A stretch of 64,000 nt of DNA from Mycobacterium pseudokansasii (GTDB taxonomy: Bacteria; Actinomycetota; Actinomycetes; Mycobacteriales; Mycobacteriaceae), in the NCBI RefSeq assembly GCF_900566075.1, contig NZ_UPHU01000001.1, positions 4,030,325-4,094,324 on the forward strand, read 5' to 3'. Each line of letters begins with the position of its first letter. The first letter of the stretch is position 1. Shown here one piece after another: positions 22,995 to 36,447 of this stretch. A program made the translations under genes and the position numbers. The notes under the pieces were generated by a model. That model worked only from the letters and a program-made list of their open reading frames with translations, made no database searches and was not told the DNA's origin.

Positions 22995-23417
22995 CTGGCG
23001 AGCTTAGCGAAATCTGTGCAGTACCAGGTAAATCTCTGTAGGCGAACCTCTTGGGATCTCCTCAGATCCCGTCCGGGACGAACGCCGAGAGCTGGGCGAA
23101 AACTGTGAATCTTCCCCACGTTTCGTCACAACTGCGGGTGTGGCGGCGCGAGGGGCGTCACCGCAGGTCAGTCGCGGGTAATCTGGCCTCGAGAACACCG
23201 GTCGATGACGACCTGGGATGAGCGGGTCGGCCTGAGGGCCCGATCGACGGGCTCACCGGTTTCCAGCAACGCACCGGCACGTTTAACCCGGTGCGAGAAG
23301 ACCGTAAAACGGCCGAAACGTCGCACATCCCGTACCGAAACATCCCTGTCGCAGGATTTGGCGAATACCCCGTTGCACAGCGGTGTGTAAGCAGCGGCTG
23401 TGAGAAAGGAAGTAGGC
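22995..23417. other. divergent promoter region, lppP / nitrate reductase
   Basis: A 423-bp gap between divergent lppP and the nitrate reductase gene. It contains a GlnR-like box at 23304-23319 and a strong Shine-Dalgarno sequence (AAAGGAAG, 23405-23412) that points to the GTG at 23418 as the reductase start. No convincing small ORF or RNA gene is seen. Confidence 0.6.
23304..23319 (+). promoter_or_regulatory. possible GlnR box upstream of nitrate reductase
   Basis: GTAAA-N6-GAAAC follows the actinobacterial GlnR half-site pattern (GTnAC-N6-GAAAC), about 100 bp before the start. A second GTACC...GAAAC-like stretch follows at 23332-23341 with imperfect spacing. GlnR activates nitrate assimilation in mycobacteria; binding here is inferred only. 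Confidence 0.4.
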
Positions 23418-26400
23418 GTGTCCAGGGAACTCATGGCGCCCGGTAAGGACGCCGTGGAGACTATGTGCGCCTATTGCGGCGTGGGCTGCGGCATTGTGCT
23501 GCAGGTCACAACGGACGCGGAAACCGGAAAGCGCCACATTGCCAAGTCAATTGGCCGCACCTCCCATCCGGCCAACTTTGGGCGGTTGTGCACCAAGGGG
23601 GCCACGACGGCAGACCTGCTCGCCGCGCCGGGACGGCTGGAGTCGGCATGCCTGCGCAATGACCGTGGAGAGCCCCTCGAGCCGGTCGGCATCGACGACG
23701 CCATCACCCAATGCGCCAAGCGGTTACGCGACATCATCGACGAGCACGGCCCCGACGCCGTCGCGGTGTACGTATCGGGACAGATGTCGATCGAGGCCCA
23801 GTACCTGGCCAACAAGCTGACCAAAGGGTTCATCGGCACCAACCAGATCGAGGCCAATTCGCGGCTGTGCATGGCGGGGGCCAGTTCGGGATACAATCTG
23901 TCGTTGGGCGCCGACGGACCGCCCGGCTCGTATCAGGACTTCGATCAGGCCGATCTGTTTCTGGTCATCGGCGCCAACATGGCCGACTGCCACCCAATCC
24001 TGTTCCTGCGGATGATGGAACGCGTCCAGGCCGGCGCCAAATTGATCGTCGTCGACCCGCGCCGCACCGCGACCGCCGACAAGGCGGACCTGTTCCTGCA
24101 GATCGCTCCCGGCACCGACCTGGCGCTGCTCAACGGCTTACTGCAGCTGATCGTCGAAAACGGCCACACGGACCCGCATTTCATCGCCGAGTTCACCGAG
24201 GGCTGGGAGGTGATGCCGAGCTTTCTCGAGCAGTTCCCACCCGACAAGGTCAGCGAAATCACCGGTCTTCCTGTCGAAGACATCCGCACCGCAGCGCGCT
24301 GGATCGGCGAAGCCACCAACTGGATGAGCTGCTGGACAATGGGACTCAACCAGAGCACCCACGGCACCTGGAACACCAACGCGCTGTGCAACCTGCATCT
24401 GGCCACCGGCGCCATCTGCAAGCCGGGCAACGGCCCCTTCTCCCTCACCGGGCAGCCCAACGCCATGGGTGGACGCGAAATGGGTTATATGGGGCCGGGT
24501 CTGCCGGGACAGCGCTCGGTGCTCTCGGCCGCCGACCGCGAATTCGTGGAGCAGCAATGGGGCATTGCCCACGGGTCGCTGCGCACCGAAGTCAGCGCCG
24601 GTGTGGTCGATATGTTCTCCCGGATGGCCGCCGGCGACATCAAGGCATGCTGGATCATGTGCACCAATCCCGTAGCCACCGTGGCTAATCGGAAGACTGT
24701 GCTGGCCGGGCTGGAGAAGGCCGAATTGGTGATCAGCCAGGATGCGTTCGCCGAGACCGAGACCAACGAGTACGCGACCGTGTTGCTGCCCGCGGCCCTG
24801 TGGGCCGAGTCCGAGGGGGTGATGGTCAATTCCGAGCGGACCCTGACGTTGTTCCAGAAGGCCGTCGAGCCGGTCGGGCAGGCACTGCCGGACTGGCAGA
24901 TCATCGCCCGGATCGCTTGCGAGATGGGCTATTCGGAGTCGTTCAGCTACCAATCCGCCGCGGAGGTGTTCGAAGAGATCAAGCGGTTCTCGAACCCGGC
25001 GACCGGATACGACCTGCGCGGGGTCAGCTACGACAGGTTGCGGCAGACACCGTTGCAGTGGCCCTGCCCACCCGAAAGCGATGGCCGCAGCCCGATCCGC
25101 TACCGCAACGACGGGGTCAGCCAGACCCTGTTGGTTCGCGACGACGGGACGGTGCCGCGGTTGGCGTTCCCGACCGCCAGTGGGCGTGCGGTGTTCTTCG
25201 CCCGTCCCCATCTGCTGCCCGAGGAGATGCCCGACGGTGACTACCCGTTCCTGCTCAACACCGGGCGCCTGCCGCACCAGTGGCACACACTGACCAAGAC
25301 CGGAAAGGTGGCCAAACTCAACAAACTCAACCCGGGACCGTTTGTCGAGATCCATCCCGATGACGCCGCACAACTGCACGTCTGCGACGGCGACGACGTC
25401 GAGATAGCGTCACGTCGCGGTCGCGCGGTGTTGCCCGCCCTGGTCACCGACCGGGTGCGGCCCGGCAACTGTTTTGCTCCCTTCCACTGGAACGACGTCT
25501 TCGGCGAGTACCTCTCGATCAATGCGGTCACCAACGACGCCGTCGACCCGATATCACGGCAACCGGAATACAAGGCGTGTGCGGTCACCTTGACCAAAGT
25601 CGCCCAAACCGCGGCGTGGCCACGTTCGGCAGACGAACCCAGCGGGGCCGACGCACCCGAACCGGAGTTGCTCACCGACACCCCGCGCCTCGCTGTGGCC
25701 GACATCGACGCGCTCGCCGAATTCCTCGGAGTGGCAACCGAACCGATGCCCCAGTTCGGTCCGTTCGCTCGTTCCTACCTTGCCGGTTTGCTGGCGGGGC
25801 TGCGCACCGAAACCGGTCGGCGCATGGCCGGGGTGCCCACCGTGCCGGTCAGCGCTCCCTTCGACACGCCCACCCGGCTGTGGCTGACCGGCCTACTCGC
25901 GGGAATGTTCGCGCGCGCCGAGATGCCGCAACCGGTGCCGGTCATGCGGCCCCACGGTGCCGACGGCGACCGCCAAAAGCCCACTGCGGCAACCGCCCCG
26001 ATCGTGGTGTTGTGGGCGTCGCAAACCGGGACGGCCGAAGAACTCGCCGCTGACGTCGCGGCGCAACTGCGTGCGGCCCGGCTGCCGGTCGCATTGCACG
26101 GCATGGACGAGTTCCCGGTGTCGCAGCTGCCGACGGCTCAGCAGCTGCTGCTGATCACCAGCACCACCGGGGACGGCGAGCCACCGGACAACGGCGCAGC
26201 TTTCTGGCGGGCGCTGTCGGCTGAAACCGCGCCGCAGCTGGCCGGCACCCGCTACGCCGTCCTGGCGCTGGGCGATTCCAACTATGGCAACTTCTGCGGT
26301 CACGGGCGGGCGCTGGACCAGCGCCTGGCCGAACTGGGAGCGGCCCGCATCATCGACCGCGTCGACTGCGAACCCGACTACGAGGATCCTGCCGCCGACT

Positions 26401-27623
26401 GGCTGAGCCGGGTTCTGCACGAGCTGCGCGGCACGGTGTCGACCACGGCCACAACGCTTCAGGCGTCGCCGACGGCTACCCCAACACCACGGGCGTTCAC
26501 GAAAAAGAACCCATTGATCACCAACGTGGTCCGCAACACCACGCTCAGTAAACCGCGTTCAGGAAAAAACGTGCGGCAGTTGGTTTTTCACGCACCCGAG
26601 CAAGCGGTCAGCTACGAAGCCGGCGACGCGCTGGGGGTGTGGCCCCGCAACGACAGCCGGCTGGTCGACGAATGGCTGACGGTGACCGGACTGAATGGCC
26701 ACACCGAAGTCGATGTCGCCAATCACGGGTCGATGTCGCTGCGTGCGGCATTGACCGATCGGCTCGAGATCGCGCACATCAGCCCCGCCCTGCTGCGCTT
26801 CGTCCAGCAGCGCACCGCGGACTGCGACGTTGCCGGCCAGCTCGCCGACCTGATGCGCCCGGAAAACAAAGCCGCGCTTGCCGATTGGTCCTGGGGCCGG
26901 CAGTCAGTCGACCTGCTGGCTCAGGCGCCGGTCACCGCAACCGCCGACGAGTGGCTAGCTGTACTCAAACCGCTTCAGCCGCGGCTGTATTCGATATCGT
27001 CCAGCCCCAAACAGCATCCGGGGGAAGTGCATCTGACCGTGTCGCCGGTCCGGTACAACTTCCAGGGCGTGCCGCGGCGCGGGGTGTGCTCGACCTATCT
27101 GGCCGACCGCTCCCCTAGCGACGAGATCGCGGTCTATGTAAAGAAATCCAGCAGTTTCCGGCCCCCCAGTGACCCGCACACACCCATGATCATGATCGGT
27201 CCGGGAACCGGTATCGCGCCCTTCCGGGCTTTCCTGCAGGAGCGGCGCGCGCTCGGCCACACCGGGCCGAACTGGCTGTTCTTCGGCGAGCAGCACGCCG
27301 CCACAGACTTCTACTACCGTGAGGAAATCCAGGCGATGCACGCCGACGGCTTCCTCACCGAACTCGACCTGGCATTCTCGCGCGATCAGCACGAGAAGGT
27401 CTACGTGCAGCACCTGATGCGCCGGCGCGGAGCGCAGCTGTGGCGATGGCTGCAGGACGGCGCGCAACTGTACGTGTGCGGCAACGCCGACCCGATGGCT
27501 AAAGATGTCGACCGCACGCTGTGTGACATCGCCGCCGAGCACGGACACCTCGAGCCCGAAGCGGCCAACGCCTACGTGCAGTCGCTGAGCGCGGCCAAGC
27601 GCTACCACCGCGACGTCTACTGA
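23418..27623 (+). CDS. assimilatory nitrate reductase fused to NADPH-flavoprotein reductase
   Basis: A 1401-residue fusion. Residues about 15-75 bind a 4Fe-4S cluster (CAYCGVGCG ... FGRLCTKG). Residues about 75-720 are the molybdopterin oxidoreductase core with the Cys ligand in NSRLCMAG (near 160) and a MoCo-binding C-terminal domain ([13 protein letters not shown]). After a linker, a flavodoxin domain ([15 protein letters not shown], near 870; [11 protein letters not shown]) and a ferredoxin-NADP reductase domain ([39 protein letters not shown]) follow, ending in a Tyr as usual for CysJ-type reductases. Electrons should pass NADPH-FAD-FMN-FeS-Mo, reducing nitrate to nitrite. A similar NADPH-dependent enzyme (NasN) is described in M. 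smegmatis. Nitrite reductase genes are not in this window. The GTG at 23418 is preferred for its ribosome site. Confidence 0.93.
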
Positions 27624-29379: not shown

Positions 29380-31299
29380 TCAGCCGGCGTTCATGCCGCC
29401 CTCGGCGATACGGCGTACCGCGCTGACGAACACGTCGACCTCGTCGAAGGTGTTGTAGAAGGCGAACGACGGGCGAACCGTGGCCTCCAAGCCGTAGCGA
29501 CGCAGAATCGGCTGGGCGCAGTGATGTCCGGCACGCACCGCGATGCCCTCGGCGTTGAGCGCCTTGCCGACCTCGAGCGGCTCATGGCCGGCCAGCACGA
29601 ACGACAGCACACTGGCCTTCTCGGTCGCGGTGCCCACCAGGCGGACACCGGGCACATCGGCCAGCCGCGGGGTCGCGTACCGCAACAGCGCATGCTCGTA
29701 GGCGGCGATGCGCTCGACACCCACCCGCTCGACGTAACGCAACGCCTCGCCGAGACCCACCGCATCGGCGATGTTGCCGGTGCCGGCTTCGAACTTGCTC
29801 GGCGGCTCCTGATACAGCGAGCGCTCCATCGTGACGTCGGTGATCATGTTGCCGCCCCCCTGCCACGGCGGTGTCTCGGCGAGAACGTCCTCGCGCCCGT
29901 AGAGCACACCGATTCCGGTGGGGCCGTAGACCTTGTGCCCGGAGAACGCGAAGAAGTCAGCTCCGAGCTCGGCAACGTCGATCGGCAGGTGCGGAATCGA
30001 CTGGGCACCGTCGATCAGCACCCGGGCGCCGTAGCGGTGTCCGAGCTCGACAATCTGGTGTACCGGCGTCACGGTACCGAGGGCATTCGAGACATGAGTT
30101 GCCGCAACGAGTTTGGTCTTCGGACCCAGCAGCGCCTCGAACTCCGACAACAGCAGATTGCCGGCTTCATCAACCGGGGCCACCTTCAGCACGGCACCGG
30201 TCTGCTGGGAAATAAGTTGCCACGGAACGATATTGGCGTGATGCTCCAAATGGGTGATGACGATCTCGTCACCCGGGCGCAGATGCTTTCCACCCCATGC
30301 GTAGGCCACCAGATTGATGGCCTCGGTGGTGCCGCGGACGAAGATGATCTCTTCGTCGCGGGCGGCGCCGATGAATCGACGGACGGTGTCGCGCGCCTCT
30401 TCGTAGGCATCGGTGGCCCGGGCGGCCAGCTCGTGCGCGGCACGGTGGATGTTGGAGTTTTCGTGGGCGTAGAAGTGCGCGAGCCGGTCGATGACCACTT
30501 GCGGCTTTTGGGTGGTGGCCGCGTTGTCGAACCAGATCAACGGCTTGCCGTTGACCGTCTCCCGAAGAATCGGAAAGTCGGCACGCACGGCCTCGACGTC
30601 GAAGACATCGATCGCCCGGTGATCGTCGGCCGGCTTGGGCACCGAGTCGGCCTCGGTGAGCAAGGGGGTGAGGAAGGCGTAGTTGCGCTCGTCACCGAGC
30701 GGCGTATCGCGGCGGGCCGGCACCGTGTCGGACCAACCGAGGTCGCCGACCGACGGCGCCGCACGCGGCCATTCGGGCCGCGGAACCGGCATCGAATCGT
30801 GCGGAGCGATCGGAACGTGGGGCGCCGCGCCGGCCAGCACCCCCGGAACCGTCGGCACGATGCCTGAACTCGGTACCGCGAACGCCGTCAGCCCGCCGGC
30901 ACCCGGTGGATACCGATCCGCCAGGCCGGCAGCTGCCGTGGATGCCGCCGGCGCCGCCGTCGTATCCGGAACGCTTCCGCGCAGAGCCACCGGTGCCGTC
31001 TGCGGCGGCCCCTCGGGCTCCGGTGACGTCGGCGCCGGAAGGTAGATGTCGGCTACGCCGACGGACGGAACCGCAGCCGGCGCCACGTCGAACGCGCCGG
31101 CAGCTGCCCGCCCGGCCGCTGCTGCGGCCGTCGTGTCGGGCATGTTGCCGCGCGGGGCCACCGGAGCCGCCTGCGGCGGGCTGTCGAAGCCCGGCCGAAT
31201 GCCGGCGGCGTAGAGCTGACCGGCAAATGCGGCCAGCTCCGCGGCGCTGATCGGCGCCTCACCTGCGGCGTCTGGCGCCGGGTACTCACTTGTACTCAT
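29380..31299 (-). CDS. encapsulin-targeted cysteine desulfurase with long disordered N-terminus
   Basis: A 639-residue protein. Residues about 230-635 are a SufS-type PLP cysteine desulfurase: WFDNAATTQKP near 256, HLEHHANIVPW near 350, PLP Lys in FSGHKVYGPTG (about K456), and catalytic Cys in RAGHHCAQPI (about C594). It converts cysteine to alanine plus enzyme-bound persulfide. The first 225 residues are Ala/Pro-rich and disordered, with two near-copies of PPQxAPVAxRGxxPDTTAA (about 41-59 and 98-116), typical of the cargo-loading domain of family 2A encapsulin cargo. The ATG at 31299 overlaps the shell gene by 14 bp, so shell and cargo are coupled. Confidence 0.92.
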   Translation of the reverse strand: MSTSEYPAPDAAGEAPISAAELAAFAGQLYAAGIRPGFDSPPQAAPVAPRGNMPDTTAAAAAGRAAAGAFDVAPAAVPSVGVADIYLPAPTSPEPEGPPQTAPVALRGSVPDTTAAPAASTAAAGLADRYPPGAGGLTAFAVPSSGIVPTVPGVLAGAAPHVPIAPHDSMPVPRPEWPRAAPSVGDLGWSDTVPARRDTPLGDERNYAFLTPLLTEADSVPKPADDHRAIDVFDVEAVRADFPILRETVNGKPLIWFDNAATTQKPQVVIDRLAHFYAHENSNIHRAAHELAARATDAYEEARDTVRRFIGAARDEEIIFVRGTTEAINLVAYAWGGKHLRPGDEIVITHLEHHANIVPWQLISQQTGAVLKVAPVDEAGNLLLSEFEALLGPKTKLVAATHVSNALGTVTPVHQIVELGHRYGARVLIDGAQSIPHLPIDVAELGADFFAFSGHKVYGPTGIGVLYGREDVLAETPPWQGGGNMITDVTMERSLYQEPPSKFEAGTGNIADAVGLGEALRYVERVGVERIAAYEHALLRYATPRLADVPGVRLVGTATEKASVLSFVLAGHEPLEVGKALNAEGIAVRAGHHCAQPILRRYGLEATVRPSFAFYNTFDEVDVFVSAVRRIAEGGMNAG

Positions 31300-32209
31300 G
31301 GAACTGGTCCACCGCCACGTCGTCGAGCACGGCAAGCGCATCGTCGGTGAGCACGGCCAAGGACGTGTAGAGGGTCACCAGGTAGGTCGCGATCGCCGAT
31401 TGGTTGATGCCGGTGAACCGCACCGACAGCCCCGGCGCCTGCTCCCCCACCAGCCCGGGCTGGAACAGGCCTACCACGCCCTGGCGTTCTTCGCCGGTGC
31501 GCACCAGGATGAACTTGGTCTTGCCGTCGACAACCGGCACCTTGTCGGAGGGAATCAGCGGGATGCCGCGCCAGGTGATGAACTGCGCGCCGAACAGGCT
31601 CACCACTGGCGGCGGCACGCCACGGTAGGTGGCCTCACGGCCGAACGCCGCAATCCCCTGGGGGTGGGTCAGGAAAAAGCTGGGCGTCTTCCAGACCTTG
31701 GTGATCAGCGCGTCCAGATCGTCCGGCGTGGGCGCTCCGGCCAGCGTCCGGATGGTCTGCCCGGGTGTCGCCTGGGCAAGCAATCCGTATTCGGGGCTGT
31801 TGACCAGTTCGAACTCCTGGCGCTCCTTGATGGTTTCGATGGTCAGCCGCAACTGCTGCGCGATCTGGTCGTGCGGGCTCGAGTAAAGGTCGGACACTCG
31901 GGTGTGGATATCGAGCAGCGTGGAGATGGTTCGCAGCGTGTACTCCCGCGGGCTGGTCTCATAGTCGACGTAGGTCTCCGGCAGCGGCCCGTCCGTTCCG
32001 GCGCCCGCTTCGGCCTTGATCGCCACCCGTTCGGGGTTGATCACCCGGTTCACCCGATAGATACCCGCTTCCACCGGCACCCAGCTGAGCAGATGCAGCA
32101 ACCAGCGGGGCGTGATCGTCGACAGCTGCGGGACCGTCTTGGTGGCGTTGGCAAGCTGCCTGGCAGCAAGATCACCCAGTGCCTGAGACTCGTTTTGCGG
32201 CGAACTCAT
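31286..32209 (-). CDS. family 2A encapsulin shell protein (MMP-I / SrpI type)
   Basis: A 307-residue HK97-fold shell protein, the same length as M. leprae major membrane protein I. Features include the N-terminal arm with LATRQL-like ALGDLAARQLANATKTVPQL, the VNRVINPERVAIK segment near residue 57, and the C-terminal FTGINQSAIATYLVTLYTSLAVL stretch. Such shells assemble into roughly 25-nm compartments that enclose cysteine desulfurase. The ATG at 32209 follows AAGGGA (32215-32220). First gene of the shell-cargo pair, divergent from the cysteine biosynthesis operon. M. tuberculosis has the unrelated stp gene in this position. Confidence 0.94.
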   Translation of the reverse strand: MSSPQNESQALGDLAARQLANATKTVPQLSTITPRWLLHLLSWVPVEAGIYRVNRVINPERVAIKAEAGAGTDGPLPETYVDYETSPREYTLRTISTLLDIHTRVSDLYSSPHDQIAQQLRLTIETIKERQEFELVNSPEYGLLAQATPGQTIRTLAGAPTPDDLDALITKVWKTPSFFLTHPQGIAAFGREATYRGVPPPVVSLFGAQFITWRGIPLIPSDKVPVVDGKTKFILVRTGEERQGVVGLFQPGLVGEQAPGLSVRFTGINQSAIATYLVTLYTSLAVLTDDALAVLDDVAVDQFHEYK

Positions 32210-32303
32210 CGTTGTCCCTTCCGTGCATGATCGATCCCTGCGCAGGCACCGGGCCTGGAGGTCGGGCGCAATCATCGTCGGCCGCGCCCAGACGTGCGCT
32301 GAG

Positions 32304-32331
32304 AGCGTATTCGACGCGGTCGCCCGGGCAA
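32304..32331 (-). promoter_or_regulatory. possible encapsulin promoter
   Basis: On the minus strand, TTGCCC (32331-32326) and TACGCT (32309-32304) are separated by 16 bp and lie about 95-120 bp before the shell start. A sigma-A-like arrangement, weak match. Confidence 0.3.
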
Positions 32332-32377
32332 AGCGTTACATCATCGCTGAGCCGAACAGCTGATATGCGGCATGCCT

Positions 32378-32383
32378 TATAAT
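32378..32383 (+). promoter_or_regulatory. -10 box TATAAT for the leaderless polycysteine ORF
   Basis: A consensus TATAAT ends 7 bp before the ATG at 32391, the spacing at which transcription starts on the A of the ATG. That makes the leader ORF leaderless. No strong -35 is seen, as is common in mycobacteria. Confidence 0.8.
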
Positions 32384-32390
32384 GGATGCC

Positions 32391-32465
32391 ATGCAACAGG
32401 CCGTACCGCTGCGCTTTGTCCTTACGCGCTGCATCGCCGCGGACTGTTGTTGTTGCTGCTGTTGA
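32391..32465 (+). CDS. leaderless polycysteine leader peptide (cysteine-responsive attenuator)
   Basis: A 24-codon ORF, starting MQQAVPLRF, with one Cys at codon 14 and ending in six consecutive Cys codons (TGT TGT TGT TGC TGC TGT) before TGA. The consensus TATAAT 7 bp upstream implies a leaderless transcript beginning at this ATG. Polycysteine leaderless ORFs upstream of sulfur genes, including cysK1, are established in mycobacteria as cysteine-responsive attenuators: when Cys-tRNA is scarce, stalled ribosomes expose the ribosome site of the next gene. Here TCTTC (32473-32478 area) downstream of the stop could pair with GAAGA in the next gene's ribosome site at 32548-32556. The peptide itself probably has no function. 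Confidence 0.9.
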   Translation: MQQAVPLRFVLTRCIAADCCCCCC

Positions 32466-32565
32466 TTCCTGACGTCTTCTGACCGTTCAGCAATCGTCGC
32501 GCTGCGGCGCTTCACACCTTGATGACGCGCGCGACCCAAAGTCTTCAGGAAGAGCAACGACCCCT

Positions 32566-33855
32566 ATGACTGTCTTGTCCATCCCGCACCGCGCGCCGGC
32601 CCCGGTGGCGACCCGTCGGCGCATCCGGGTACGACCGGCCACCGAGTTGACCCGGATGACCCGCTACCGAGGCGGGACCTACTCACACACCGTCGACCGG
32701 ATCGTGTTCGCCGACGGCACCACCGCCCGCACCGACCTGATCAGGTTGAACCCGAACGTGCAGGCCTACTCGCTGGATTTCACCGGCGTCGCACCACACC
32801 AGCCGTCGCCCTACCGCCTGGGCACCTGGTCCGCCCTGCCACATCTGCGCACCCGCGACTGCGAAGCCGAGGTGGACTGGATCCTGCGCAACTCTTTCCC
32901 GATGTGCCCGATCGCCGAGCTGAGCCGACGGCTCCGCGCCGCCGGGTATCCGCTGGGGCCGGCCAACATCAGCGAACACGAAGCCATCGCCGCAACGCAG
33001 GCGGCGATCTGGTACTTCACCAACGGCATGACGCTGGACACCCGCCCGCTCAATGCCCCCCTCGCGGTGCGCCGCGGACCGGGACCGGTGCTCACCTTCG
33101 AATTCGACGGGCGGCCACAGCTGGGCGGCTATTCGCTGTGGACGGCGTCCGACACCCCCGTGGCGGTGAAGCTGCAAAAGTCGACGGATGGCCTTGTCTG
33201 GCAAGACATCTCCGGATCCCAACTGACCACCGATGCCGGCCGAGGACGCTACCAGCGCACCCTCGGCGTCGGCAGCACCTTGTCGACCGCCAGCCACGGA
33301 TACGGCGCGCACGGCTACCGCTGCTACCGGCTGGTCGCCACCTCCGACACCACGCCGGTGATCGACCACGTCGACTTCTGGCTGACCGGTTCCAGCCACT
33401 ATCGCAACGCCGATCGAGTGGTGCATCTCTACAACTATCTGCTCGCGGGGGCATACACGGCCTTGCGGGACGACGGCGATCCGCACCTCCTCGACACCGC
33501 CGCCGCTGTCGACTCGGAACTCGTGGGGCCGTTCCGGATCCGAATTCCGTTGACGTTCAGCGTGCCTGACGGGCACGAGCTGGTCGACGCCGACGGGCGT
33601 GCCGTCACCGGAACCGTTCAACCCGGTGCGGACTTCTACCTGCGCCGAGCACCCGGCACCACGGCGACGACACTGACTGCCACGACTACCCACCACCACC
33701 TGGGTGGACGGGTGCTGACCGGAGTGGCGTTGGAGAGTACGACTCAGCGGCTCACGCCGGTTGCGCTGACGACACCCGTGCACGTGACAATCGAGTTCGA
33801 CATCAACTGGCAGGCCGCGGAGGCGCGCGCCGACATCGCTGGAGACCGCCAATGA
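32566..33855 (+). CDS. TQXA (thioester-fold) domain protein without the thioester Cys
   Basis: A 429-residue protein whose first 160 residues resemble the TQXA/thioester domain of Gram-positive surface adhesins: [16 protein letters not shown] near 36, AYSLDF at 67-72, and the TQAA motif at 144-147 in [14 protein letters not shown]. In the family a Cys in AYC forms an internal thioester with the TQ Gln; here that position is Ser69 (TCG). No signal peptide, sortase motif or membrane segment is visible, so it is probably cytoplasmic. A beta-rich C-terminal part follows. It lies between the polycysteine ORF and cysK1 and overlaps cysK1 by 4 bp, placing it in the cysteine operon opposite the encapsulin genes. 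Function unknown. Confidence 0.8.
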
Positions 33856-34784
33856 CCATCGCCGAAAACATCACCCAACTGATCGGGGGCACGCCGCTGG
33901 TCCGGCTGCGACGGGTCACCGACGGCGCAGTGGCCGACGTGGTGGCCAAGCTGGAATCCTTCAATCCGGCGGGAAGTGTGAAGGACCGCATCGGGGTAGC
34001 CATGATCGACGCCGCCGAGAAAGCGGGCCTGATCAAGCCGGACACCGTCATCGTGGAGCCGACCAGTGGGAACACCGGTATCGCGCTGGCGATGGTGGCC
34101 GCCGCGCGCGGCTACAAGTGCGTGCTCACCATGCCCGACACCATGAGCATCGAGCGACGCATGCTGCTGCGCGCTTACGGCGCCGAGCTCGTGCTCACCC
34201 CCGGCGCCGACGGCATGGCAGGCGCCATCGCCAAGGCCGAAGAACTGGCCAAGACCGACGAGCGGTATTTCATCCCGCAGCAATTCGAAAATCCGGCCAA
34301 CCCCGCGGTCCACGCCGTGACCACTGCGGAGGAGGTGTGGAAGGACACCGACGGCAAGGTCGACATCTTCGTGTCGGGCATCGGCACCGGCGGCACGATC
34401 ACCGGTGTCGCGCAGGTCATCAAGGAACGCAGGCCGTCGGCGCAGTTCGTGGCCGTGGAACCGGCCGCGTCGCCGGTGCTGTCCGGGGGTCAGAAGGGAC
34501 CACACCCAATCCAGGGCATCGGTGCCGGGTTCCTCCCGGCGGTGCTCGACATGGGCTTGGTCGACGAGGTCATCACCGTGGCCAACGACGACGCGTTCAA
34601 CCTGGCCCGCCGGCTGGCCAAGGAGGAAGGTCTGCTCGTCGGCATCTCCTCGGGCGCGGCCGCGTGGGCCGCGGTGGAAGTGGCCCGTCGGCCGGAGAAC
34701 GCCGGCAAACTCGTGGTCGTCGTACTTCCCGACTTCGGCGAGCGTTACCTGAGCACGCCGTTGTTCGCGGATCTGAGCGATTAG
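33852..34784 (+). CDS. cysK1: cysteine synthase A (O-acetylserine sulfhydrylase)
   Basis: A 310-residue PLP enzyme, same length as Rv2334. It makes cysteine from O-acetylserine and sulfide. The PLP Lys lies in [11 protein letters not shown] (about K44), the substrate loop in [12 protein letters not shown] (about 72-83), and the phosphate-binding [10 protein letters not shown] near 177-186. The ATG at 33852 overlaps the TQXA stop (ATGA). cysE follows after 2 bp, so sulfhydrylase and its acetyl-serine supplier are made together and may form the cysteine synthase complex. Confidence 0.97.
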
Positions 34785-34786
34785 CC

Positions 34787-35473
34787 ATGCTGGCGCAGAT
34801 TCGGCGCGACATCCGGGTGGCCAGGCAGCGCGACCCGGCCCGGCCGACCGCATTGGAGGTCGTTTTCTGCTATCCGGGTGTCCACGCGGTGTGGGGCCAC
34901 CGGATCAGCCACTGGCTATGGCTGCGCGGCGCGCGGTTGGCCGCCCGGGCGTTGGCGGAACTCACCCGCATCCTGACCGGTGTCGACATCCATCCCGGCG
35001 CCGTGCTGGGCTCGGGCCTGTTCATCGATCACGCGACCGGCGTGGTCATCGGTGAAACCGCCGAAGTGGGTGACGACGTCACGCTCTACCACGGCGTCAC
35101 GCTCGGCGGCACCGGAACCGATATCGGTAAGCGCCACCCCACGGTCGGTGACCGGGTGATCATCGGGGCCGGGGCCAAGATCCTGGGCCCGATCAAGATC
35201 GGCGACGGCAGCCGGATCGGCGCCAATTCCGTTGTGGTCAAAGAGGTTCCGTCCGCCGCAGTGGTGGTCGGCGTCCCCGGGCAGGTCATCAGCCGTAACG
35301 GTTCGTCCAGACACGACGACTCGGTGTTGCCCGACTTGGTGGGGGTCAGCCTCCAGTCGCTGCTCAGCCGGGTGGCCAGGCTGGAGGCCGCAGCCGACCA
35401 CCACCCGCCGGCCGGACGGGTGATCCGACCGCCCGAGGCCGGTGTATGGCATGGCGAAGATTTCTCCATCTGA
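34787..35473 (+). CDS. cysE: serine O-acetyltransferase
   Basis: A 228-residue enzyme that acetylates serine with acetyl-CoA, the committed step of cysteine synthesis. The left-handed beta-helix hexapeptide repeats ([32 protein letters not shown], here shown only in part as [20 protein letters not shown]) run from about residue 65 to 165. The catalytic His is in FIDHATG and YHGVTLGG. The C-terminal tail ends in DFSI, with the terminal Ile that docks into CysK in the synthase complex. It starts 2 bp after cysK1. Confidence 0.95.
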
Positions 35474-35495
35474 TCTATCTGAGGAAGACCCGACT

Positions 35496-35537
35496 ATGAC
35501 GACTATGACTACTATGAAAGGCATGGCGAGCCGATGA
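35496..35537 (+). CDS. 13-residue Met-rich leader peptide (MTTMTTMKGMASR)
   Basis: A short ORF with four Met among 13 residues. GAGGAAG at 35481-35487 is a strong ribosome site with about 8 bp spacing, better than anything directly before the thioredoxin gene. Its TGA overlaps the thioredoxin ATG (ATGA at 35534-35537), so thioredoxin is probably translated by re-initiation. It may be just a coupling device, or sense Met or general translation. Alternatively, any of its in-frame ATGs may be irrelevant if thioredoxin starts independently. Confidence 0.55.
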   Translation: MTTMTTMKGMASR

Positions 35538-35953
35538 GCTCGATCGCAATCGCTTCGATGGCGCTCATCGCAGCGTTGACAGGTGCGACGGCGATCGGTT
35601 GGACGGTCAATCGACGGTCCGGCGTGCTGCGGGAAACCGGCTCCGCAGTTCACCAGGACGCCTCCGATCTCGGCCTGTCCGACACCGGTCCCACCGTCGT
35701 GCACTTCAGCGCCGCGTGGTGCGGTCCGTGCGCAGTGGTGCGCCGTGTGGTCGACGAGGTGTGCGCCGGATTGCCCGATGTGGCACACGTCGAGATCGAC
35801 ATCGACACCAATCCGGTGGCCGCACAGCGGATGGCCGTGCTGTCGCTACCCACCACGTTCATTTTCGACGCGGACGGGCGGCAGCTGTACCGCACCGCGG
35901 GGGTGCCGAAGGCGGCCGATCTGCGGGCAGCGTTGCAGCCCCTGCTCACCTGA
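35534..35953 (+). CDS. membrane-anchored thioredoxin-like protein
   Basis: A 139-residue thioredoxin-fold protein. An N-terminal hydrophobic segment (residues about 3-25) probably anchors it in the membrane. The active site is WCGPC near residues 62-66, with cis-Pro in LPTTFIF near 105. The thioredoxin domain covers about 40-139. By topology the domain could face outside if the segment is a signal anchor. It follows cysE by 60 bp and is followed by a DUF4395 gene, a pairing seen in other actinobacteria. Role in thiol or persulfide reduction is inferred from the sulfur operon. Confidence 0.88.
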   Translation: MSSIAIASMALIAALTGATAIGWTVNRRSGVLRETGSAVHQDASDLGLSDTGPTVVHFSAAWCGPCAVVRRVVDEVCAGLPDVAHVEIDIDTNPVAAQRMAVLSLPTTFIFDADGRQLYRTAGVPKAADLRAALQPLLT

Positions 35954-35979
35954 GACCTTTGGTAAAAGGAGTGGTCTTG

Positions 35980-36447
35980 ATGCCGAGTAATCCTGGACAA
36001 GTGGACGTCCGCGGTCCGCGGTTTGCCGCGTGGATCACCACGACGGTCCTCGTCGTGGCCTTGATCGTCTCGGTGTTCAGCACCAAGGCGGCGGCGGTGA
36101 TACTGGTCGCCCAGGCGATCGTCTTCGCCATCAGCGCGCTGCGCGGTCCGCGCAACAGTCCCTACGGCCTGCTGTTCGCCAAGCTGGTAGCGCCCCGGCT
36201 GGGACCGGTGACACAGCGGGAACCGGTGCCACCGCTGAAGTTCGCCCAGCTGGTCGGACTTGTTTTCACGGTCATCGGAATCGTCGGCTTCGCCGTGGCG
36301 GTCCCGGTGCTGGGCGTGGTCGCGACCTCGTTCGCGCTATTCGCCTGTTTCCTGAACGCCGCCTTCGGCATCTGCCTGGGTTGTCAGCTTTACCCGTTGG
36401 TCGCCCGACTCCGCCGAACACCGATGGCCAAAGCGCCGCATGGCTGA
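35980..36447 (+). CDS. DUF4395 membrane protein
   Basis: A 155-residue membrane protein with about four hydrophobic segments and the DUF4395 hallmark CLGCQLY (CxxC) near residues 132-138 at the end of the last helix. The ATG at 35980 lies 9 bp after AAAAGGA; a GTG at 35971 abuts it. The CxxC and the adjacent thioredoxin suggest an electron-relay pair across or at the membrane, but this is not demonstrated for the family. Last gene of the sulfur operon. Confidence 0.8.
   Translation: MPSNPGQVDVRGPRFAAWITTTVLVVALIVSVFSTKAAAVILVAQAIVFAISALRGPRNSPYGLLFAKLVAPRLGPVTQREPVPPLKFAQLVGLVFTVIGIVGFAVAVPVLGVVATSFALFACFLNAAFGICLGCQLYPLVARLRRTPMAKAPHG

Follow-up and report, generated by a model that had tools for sequence, protein, structure and literature searches.

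TQXA, a largely overlooked third gene beside a mycobacterial family 2A encapsulin, looks set for induction by cysteine shortage

Genes and features of the locus

We analyzed a 64,000-nucleotide stretch of the Mycobacterium pseudokansasii genome (the window, whose positions are used throughout; the genomes compared are given G numbers and fetched loci L numbers). It contains a locus in which the genes of a family 2A encapsulin shell and of its cysteine desulfurase cargo diverge from the gene of a TQXA protein, itself followed by cysK1, cysE, a thioredoxin gene and a DUF4395 gene (Table 1). All of them lie where a first-pass annotation of the same DNA had put them, and shell and cargo pass the curated family 2A cut-offs. 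That annotation listed TQXA and overlooked its role as the conserved partner. Our analysis of the sequences suggests that TQXA is a largely overlooked third gene beside the shell, which tends to disappear together with the shell and seems primed for induction when cysteine runs short.

Table 1. Features of the encapsulin locus (window positions; SD, Shine-Dalgarno; ORF, open reading frame; TED, thioester domain).
Feature	Position	Strand	Remarks
Cysteine desulfurase cargo, 639 aa	29380-31299	-	NF041166 847 bits (cut-off 800)
Family 2A encapsulin shell protein, 307 aa	31286-32209	-	NF041162 495.5 bits (cut-off 380), PF19307
-10-like hexamer TACGCT upstream of shell gene	32304-32309	-	19 upstream regions aligned; position kept in most relatives
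-10 element TATAAT	32378-32383	+	ends seven bases before mini-ORF start
Mini-ORF, 24 residues, putative cysteine attenuator	32391-32465	+	last six residues Cys, codons 32445-32462
Anti-SD TTCCTGA	32466-32472	+	directly after mini-ORF stop codon
TCAGGAA	32545-32551	+	complementary to anti-SD; overlaps SD-like AGGAAG of TQXA
TQXA/TED-fold protein, 429 aa	32566-33855	+	TIGR03934, PF08341; structure model, PDB match
Ser69 of TQXA, where thioester Cys expected	32770-32772	+	alignment; motif definitions from PMC4450167
Inserted CBM32/F5-8C (discoidin-like) beta-sandwich, TQXA residues 162-276	33049-33393	+	
Pro398 of TQXA, at partner Gln position	33757-33759	+	alignment; motif definitions from PMC4450167
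cysK1, cysteine synthase A	33852-34784	+	TIGR01139 473.6 bits
cysE, serine acetyltransferase (SAT)	34787-35473	+	TIGR01172
Thioredoxin, WCGPC, N-terminal hydrophobic stretch	35534-35953	+	
DUF4395 protein	35980-36447	+	PF14340

Judged from its sequence, the shell is of the SrpI type without a cNMP domain, as in family 2A; the family 2B model reaches 399.9 for a cut-off of 400 and matches with its shell part only. The shell stop and the cargo start share 14 bp (31286-31299), exactly the overlap first annotated. The cargo matches a model entitled 'family 2A encapsulin nanocompartment cargo protein cysteine desulfurase' and displays a long low-complexity N-terminus with PVAPRG-type repeats ahead of a SufS-like C-terminal domain, which would make it the adjacent desulfurase with a long N-terminal loading region that characterizes family 2A. 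A strong cargo match adjoins the shell in 63/63 loci free of contig-end cuts, two of them broken (L024 and L037, cut by contig ends, are excluded). Candidate shell-binding repeats of the type PVAPRG[NS]xP amount to 130 copies across 64 rows for the window and the fetched loci, two rows being empty. The TACGCT hexamer could be a promoter-like element belonging to the shell, and no poly-cysteine mini-ORF precedes the shell on its own strand among the loci listed. In shell and cargo families and in their adjacency, the window resembles the SrpI system of S. elongatus (PMC8049743). A nearby SAT gene, as found here, is also already known from family 2A systems (PMC8049743, PMC8346489). What the window adds to these systems is a partner with a thioester-domain (TED) fold placed under a putative poly-cysteine attenuator.

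The structure model of TQXA, with its PDB match, predicts a TED fold made of about residues 29-160 and 277-420 and interrupted by a discoidin-like insertion of ~110 residues, and a search of the PDB by sequence with TQXA gave 0 matches. TEDs form their internal bond between a Cys (motif [YFL]C) and a Gln, and both are replaced in TQXA. Ser69 and Pro398 are invariant among 39 aligned orthologs and likewise among 80. In other actinobacterial TED matches the Cys motif is present in 22/23 loci (L130 lacks it by the pattern used), and the Gln in all 22 aligned comparison TEDs, which were picked for the Cys motif, the Gln playing no part in the selection. TQXA thus appears to be a thioester-dead TED fold, and the two replacements led us to reject it as a live thioester protein. 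We also rejected Gln145 as the thioester Gln, since the Gln of the TQXA motif is not the bond partner (PMC4450167). A hydrophobic N-terminal stretch (12-mer mean above 1.6) is absent from 316/323 orthologs by a crude test that is not a signal-peptide program, and no signal peptide is visible in TQXA. It therefore differs from secreted TED proteins in its apparent lack of a signal peptide, in both thioester positions (Cys to Ser, Gln to Pro) and in its insertion. An ortholog exists in Mycolicibacterium neoaurum. Full-length TQXA is confined to the genus among 345 genomes of the class.

Co-occurrence and loss of TQXA and the shell across the genus

Our survey covered 198 members of the genus, sampled evenly out of a larger group of genomes. 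Of these, 65 gave a shell match (broken in two, G076 and G105) and 71 a TQXA match, the latter including all 65 shell genomes. As for the six others, the locus of G184 (L081) is cut by a contig end with the shell edge still visible, and G010, G057, G070, G089 and G139 hold TQXA pieces only. Shell and TQXA are divergent in 64/64 fetched encapsulin loci, separated by 258-435 bp (median 364), and this arrangement is therefore not due to chance. The pair stays together beside differing downstream genes.

The same neighbourhood had been expected to be conserved across mycobacteria, and this holds for the divergent pair but not for cysteine synthesis. The start of cysK1 overlaps the TQXA stop by 4 bp in the window; cysK1 follows TQXA in only 34/64 fetched shell loci, that is in 35/65 shell genomes when the window is included (one of them with a decayed copy), leaving 30/65 without this linkage. 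Conversely, 22 loci of the TQXA-linked type without an encapsulin retain cysK1. The window's cysE is the only close SAT match of its genome, two weaker matches reaching 36% and 33% identity over part of the length. With the decay seen in G075 (below), the sole close SAT and the 30 unlinked genomes led us to reject cysteine synthesis as the locked partner of the shell: the pairing is real in the window but not fixed. Thioredoxin was rejected likewise, being present in 18/32 encapsulin loci and in 10/23 loci without encapsulin (Fisher p 0.42, after exclusion of 7 loci with short flanks). On this comparison of gene content, TQXA, and not cysK1-cysE, would be the conserved partner locked to the shell.

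Eight of the 30 loci without cysK1 behind TQXA (L058, L059, L062, L063, L065-L068) carry a different cysK, 61-64% identical to that of the window, together with a cysE behind the cargo gene, on the side opposite to TQXA. This pair is a second link of the shell to cysteine synthesis.

The history of losses was followed on a DNA tree built on cysK1 and cysE from 62 loci; the decayed L031 was left out, and L092 and L108, cysK1 loci of genomes that carry shell and TQXA at another place, were manually scored as present. On this tree the shell must have changed state 14 times, with at least 10 of the changes falling on starred branches. Of 10 independent pairs, TQXA follows the shell in 8.7 and moves in the opposite direction in none (median p 0.004). 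The TQXA-linked portion of the tree contains 22 loci without a shell, and 19 of these have kept the poly-cysteine leader, though it lies between both lost units; TQXA remnants are found in 13/22, some of them weak at E 0.001-0.01. More than one deletion was therefore needed: shell side and TQXA side were lost in separate events, and the leader, we infer, continued to serve cysK1. In the other cysK1 clade (six loci: L092, L095, L106-L109), no poly-cysteine leader was found within 420 bases of cysK1.

One could assume that TQXA has a cysteine-linked or sugar-binding role of its own and merely travels with the shell genes, the neighbourhood alone explaining the pattern. Genes of such islands are often gained and lost together, and the CBM32-like insert, as modelled, could bind sugars. 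This explanation fits poorly with a leader that outlasts the units on both its sides and with a pair that stays together whatever lies downstream, and we regard it as improbable.

A reduced genome bears on the same question. In G075 (L031; 3.3 Mb), cysK1, cysE and mez are broken into fragments carrying stops or shifts, and shell (307/307 residues), cargo (639/639) and TQXA (419/429 aligned) are open. Compared with G115 (L033), where cysK1 and cysE are intact, dN/dS is 0.11 for the shell and 0.19 for the cargo. Since TQXA is open in G075 despite the decay of cysK1 and cysE, it seems to be useful without them. A literature search on M. lepromatosis with cysK and pseudogene returned no paper.

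The poly-cysteine leader

The 'cysteine sensor' of the first-pass annotation corresponds to the mini-ORF between shell and TQXA, whose poly-cysteine pattern has one match in the window for 0.00 expected (100 shuffles). Its mRNA is probably leaderless, because the TATAAT element ends so close to the start codon; we thus find a mini-ORF with terminal Cys codons ahead of a sulfur-linked gene, its leaderless state being deduced from the -10 spacing. A Cys-codon tract is present in 66/66 TQXA leaders, with a run of at least three Cys codons in 62 and of two in 4. Our strict mini-ORF test misses four leaders with interrupted runs (L033, L037, L041, L048), which a looser test includes. When the window's own genome was scanned with TGYTGYTGYYGYTGA, a pattern too narrow for the whole set, 7 places were found, and only that of the window has a mini-ORF with a -10 element in front.

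Shell 2015 (PMC4633059) described Cys-rich mini-ORFs in front of other genes, and six are predicted in M. tuberculosis (PMC9094748). The general mechanism of such attenuators is stated in PMC13236596, citing Canestrari 2020. The window leader resembles the mycobacterial poly-cysteine attenuators in its leaderless mini-ORF ending in Cys codons and in the sulfur genes behind it (PMC4633059), and differs in that the first controlled gene would be the encapsulin partner TQXA. For M. abscessus, a mini-ORF preceding a TQXA gene was listed in 2016 (PMC4974804), and neither 'cysteine' nor 'encapsulin' occurs in the main text of that paper. Within the literature collection that we searched, 'TQXA' and 'encapsulin' never appear in one paper, nor does 'encapsulin' with 'polycysteine' or 'thioester domain'.

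The anti-SD behind the mini-ORF pairs with the TQXA SD better than expected: the best score averages 14.93, compared with 11.28 when the anti-SDs are shuffled (12.05 at most in 200 shuffles) and 11.19 for mid-leader windows. The pair reads CCTG/CAGG in many species and TCTG/CAGA (TTTCTG with CAGAAA) in others, L036 being intermediate with a G-U pair. We folded 66 leaders; the mean probability that the SD is unpaired is 0.19 in the free leader and 0.50 with a ribosome on the Cys codons, compared with 0.20 and 0.22 in controls with the ribosome elsewhere, and the rise exceeds 0.2 in 47/66. On average over the 66 leaders, though not in the leader of the window or those of L016-L018, this model predicts that a ribosome stalled on the Cys codons should free the ribosome site of TQXA.

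Of 12 loci that lack cysK1 and were checked, 9 have a convergent gene as the next one called, and TQXA therefore seems to be alone behind the leader there. Downstream of TQXA, L043, L044 and L047 show a further conserved poly-cysteine mini-ORF, followed in L043 and L047 by a lipoprotein-like gene. From its sequence, we presume that this gene could encode a sulfate-binding protein.

In the work of Canestrari in 2020, expression from a poly-cysteine attenuator is said to be raised when cysteine is short. This sense of regulation argues against the proposal, made in the first-pass annotation, that cysteine made at this locus feeds sulfur sequestration and that thioredoxin recovers sulfur from the compartment; the regulation does not suggest that cysteine flows into the shell. 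The gene order of the window and the second cysK-cysE pair behind the cargo in eight loci speak for that proposal. Too much stands on the other side, namely the single close SAT of the genome, the 22 shell-less loci that keep cysK1, the shell genomes devoid of the linkage, G075 with its open shell, cargo and TQXA genes next to decayed cysK1 and cysE, and the absence of association between thioredoxin and the shell. We consider the feeding part and the recovery part together to be very improbable.

What TQXA may do

A family 2A encapsulin of A. baumannii, loaded with a cysteine desulfurase, reportedly serves as a sulfur store. We propose that the locus is a three-part family 2A system composed of a shell, a desulfurase cargo and a TED-fold TQXA set by the cysteine supply, with TQXA acting on the shell (probability about 0.55). 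The strict link of TQXA to the shell, its persistence without cysteine synthesis, its apparently cysteine-tuned leader and its lost thioester chemistry would together point to a cytosolic factor working on the shell-cargo particle under cysteine shortage. With ample cysteine, ribosomes would pass through the mini-ORF, the anti-SD would pair with the TQXA ribosome site and little TQXA would be made; shell and cargo, expressed from the opposite strand, would then remove sulfur from cysteine. When Cys-tRNA is low, ribosomes stalled on the Cys codons would mask the anti-SD and so allow TQXA to be made, as well as cysK1-cysE where they lie downstream. TQXA would then act in the cytosol on the particle.

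As to the nature of this action, a brake that stops the cysteine sink is the role that we would tentatively put first, still short of an even chance. TQXA is more likely such a brake than a supplier of cysteine, and we predict an interaction with the shell. On the other hand, TQXA made under cysteine shortage could let stored sulfur out, by opening the shell or helping a reductant, the sulfide being re-fixed by CysK1. Supporting this idea, TQXA and cysK1 share an attenuated operon in the 35 shell genomes mentioned above, including the one with a decayed cysK1, and SAT is an enriched companion of family 2A desulfurase operons (PMC8346489). A release factor would be less expected to stay open in G075 or to stand seemingly alone behind its leader in most of the checked loci lacking cysK1. 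Because of G075, we favour the brake and hold release to be rather unlikely.

The strict co-occurrence would also be accounted for if TQXA were itself encapsulated as a second cargo. Near the N-terminus of TQXA, a weak PVAxR stretch recalls the cargo repeats, with a median best score of 4.0 compared with 1.9 for shuffled TQXA. As a loading motif it is weak: the best match falls within the first 40 residues in only 23/65 orthologs, dnaG scores 3.8 where the window TQXA scores 4.4, and the stretch is modelled as a strand rather than as a loose tail. The motif thus gives little reason to regard TQXA as cargo, and we find a second cargo hard to credit, a little more so than a gene that merely travels with the shell.

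Several observations weigh against a TQXA that acts on the shell under cysteine control. L079 and L080 retain TQXA beside a broken shell, but these shell losses may be recent (TQXA of L080 has 403 aa). A second family 2A shell and cargo copy, L076 in G098, has no TQXA or poly-cysteine mini-ORF listed alongside, and family 2A shells outside the genus appear, from the 345 class genomes, to manage without TQXA. In the comparison of G075 with G115, TQXA is less constrained (dN/dS 0.45) than shell and cargo. Concerning the leader, the rise in SD accessibility is 0.05 or less in 10/66 cases, and the fold model shows no SD release for the window itself (0.39 to 0.36) or for L016-L018. Finally, neighbours can vanish together without any functional link, an objection which the kept leader reduces and does not remove.

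If TQXA does act on the shell, an adhesin-type fold would be tied to a nanocompartment, and there would be a named candidate protein and a predicted signal, Cys-tRNA, for shell control. We would go further only with caution: TQXA could be the first factor dedicated to controlling an encapsulin that stores sulfur, a cytosolic adhesin-type fold without its reactive bond, bearing a discoidin-like domain for docking and produced only under Cys-tRNA scarcity. Ribosomes stalling on the mini-ORF would thereby determine if the shell is to fill or to stop. The cysteine switch of cysK1-cysE would then, in the cysK1-linked lineage, derive from the TQXA leader and have outlived TQXA. This tentative proposal, to which we give somewhat less than even odds, could explain the origin of the cysteine control of cysK1-cysE in some mycobacteria, with no leader in the six loci of the other clade and a leader kept in most TQXA-less loci of this one. 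In leprosy patients, homologs of the shell have been described as the most antigenic protein (PMC8049743), and the regulation of the shell is therefore of wider relevance.

Elsewhere in the window, positions 23400-27623 of the plus strand hold a 1407-aa ORF that, judged from sequence alone, resembles a molybdopterin nitrate reductase carrying a flavodoxin/reductase part at its C-terminus.

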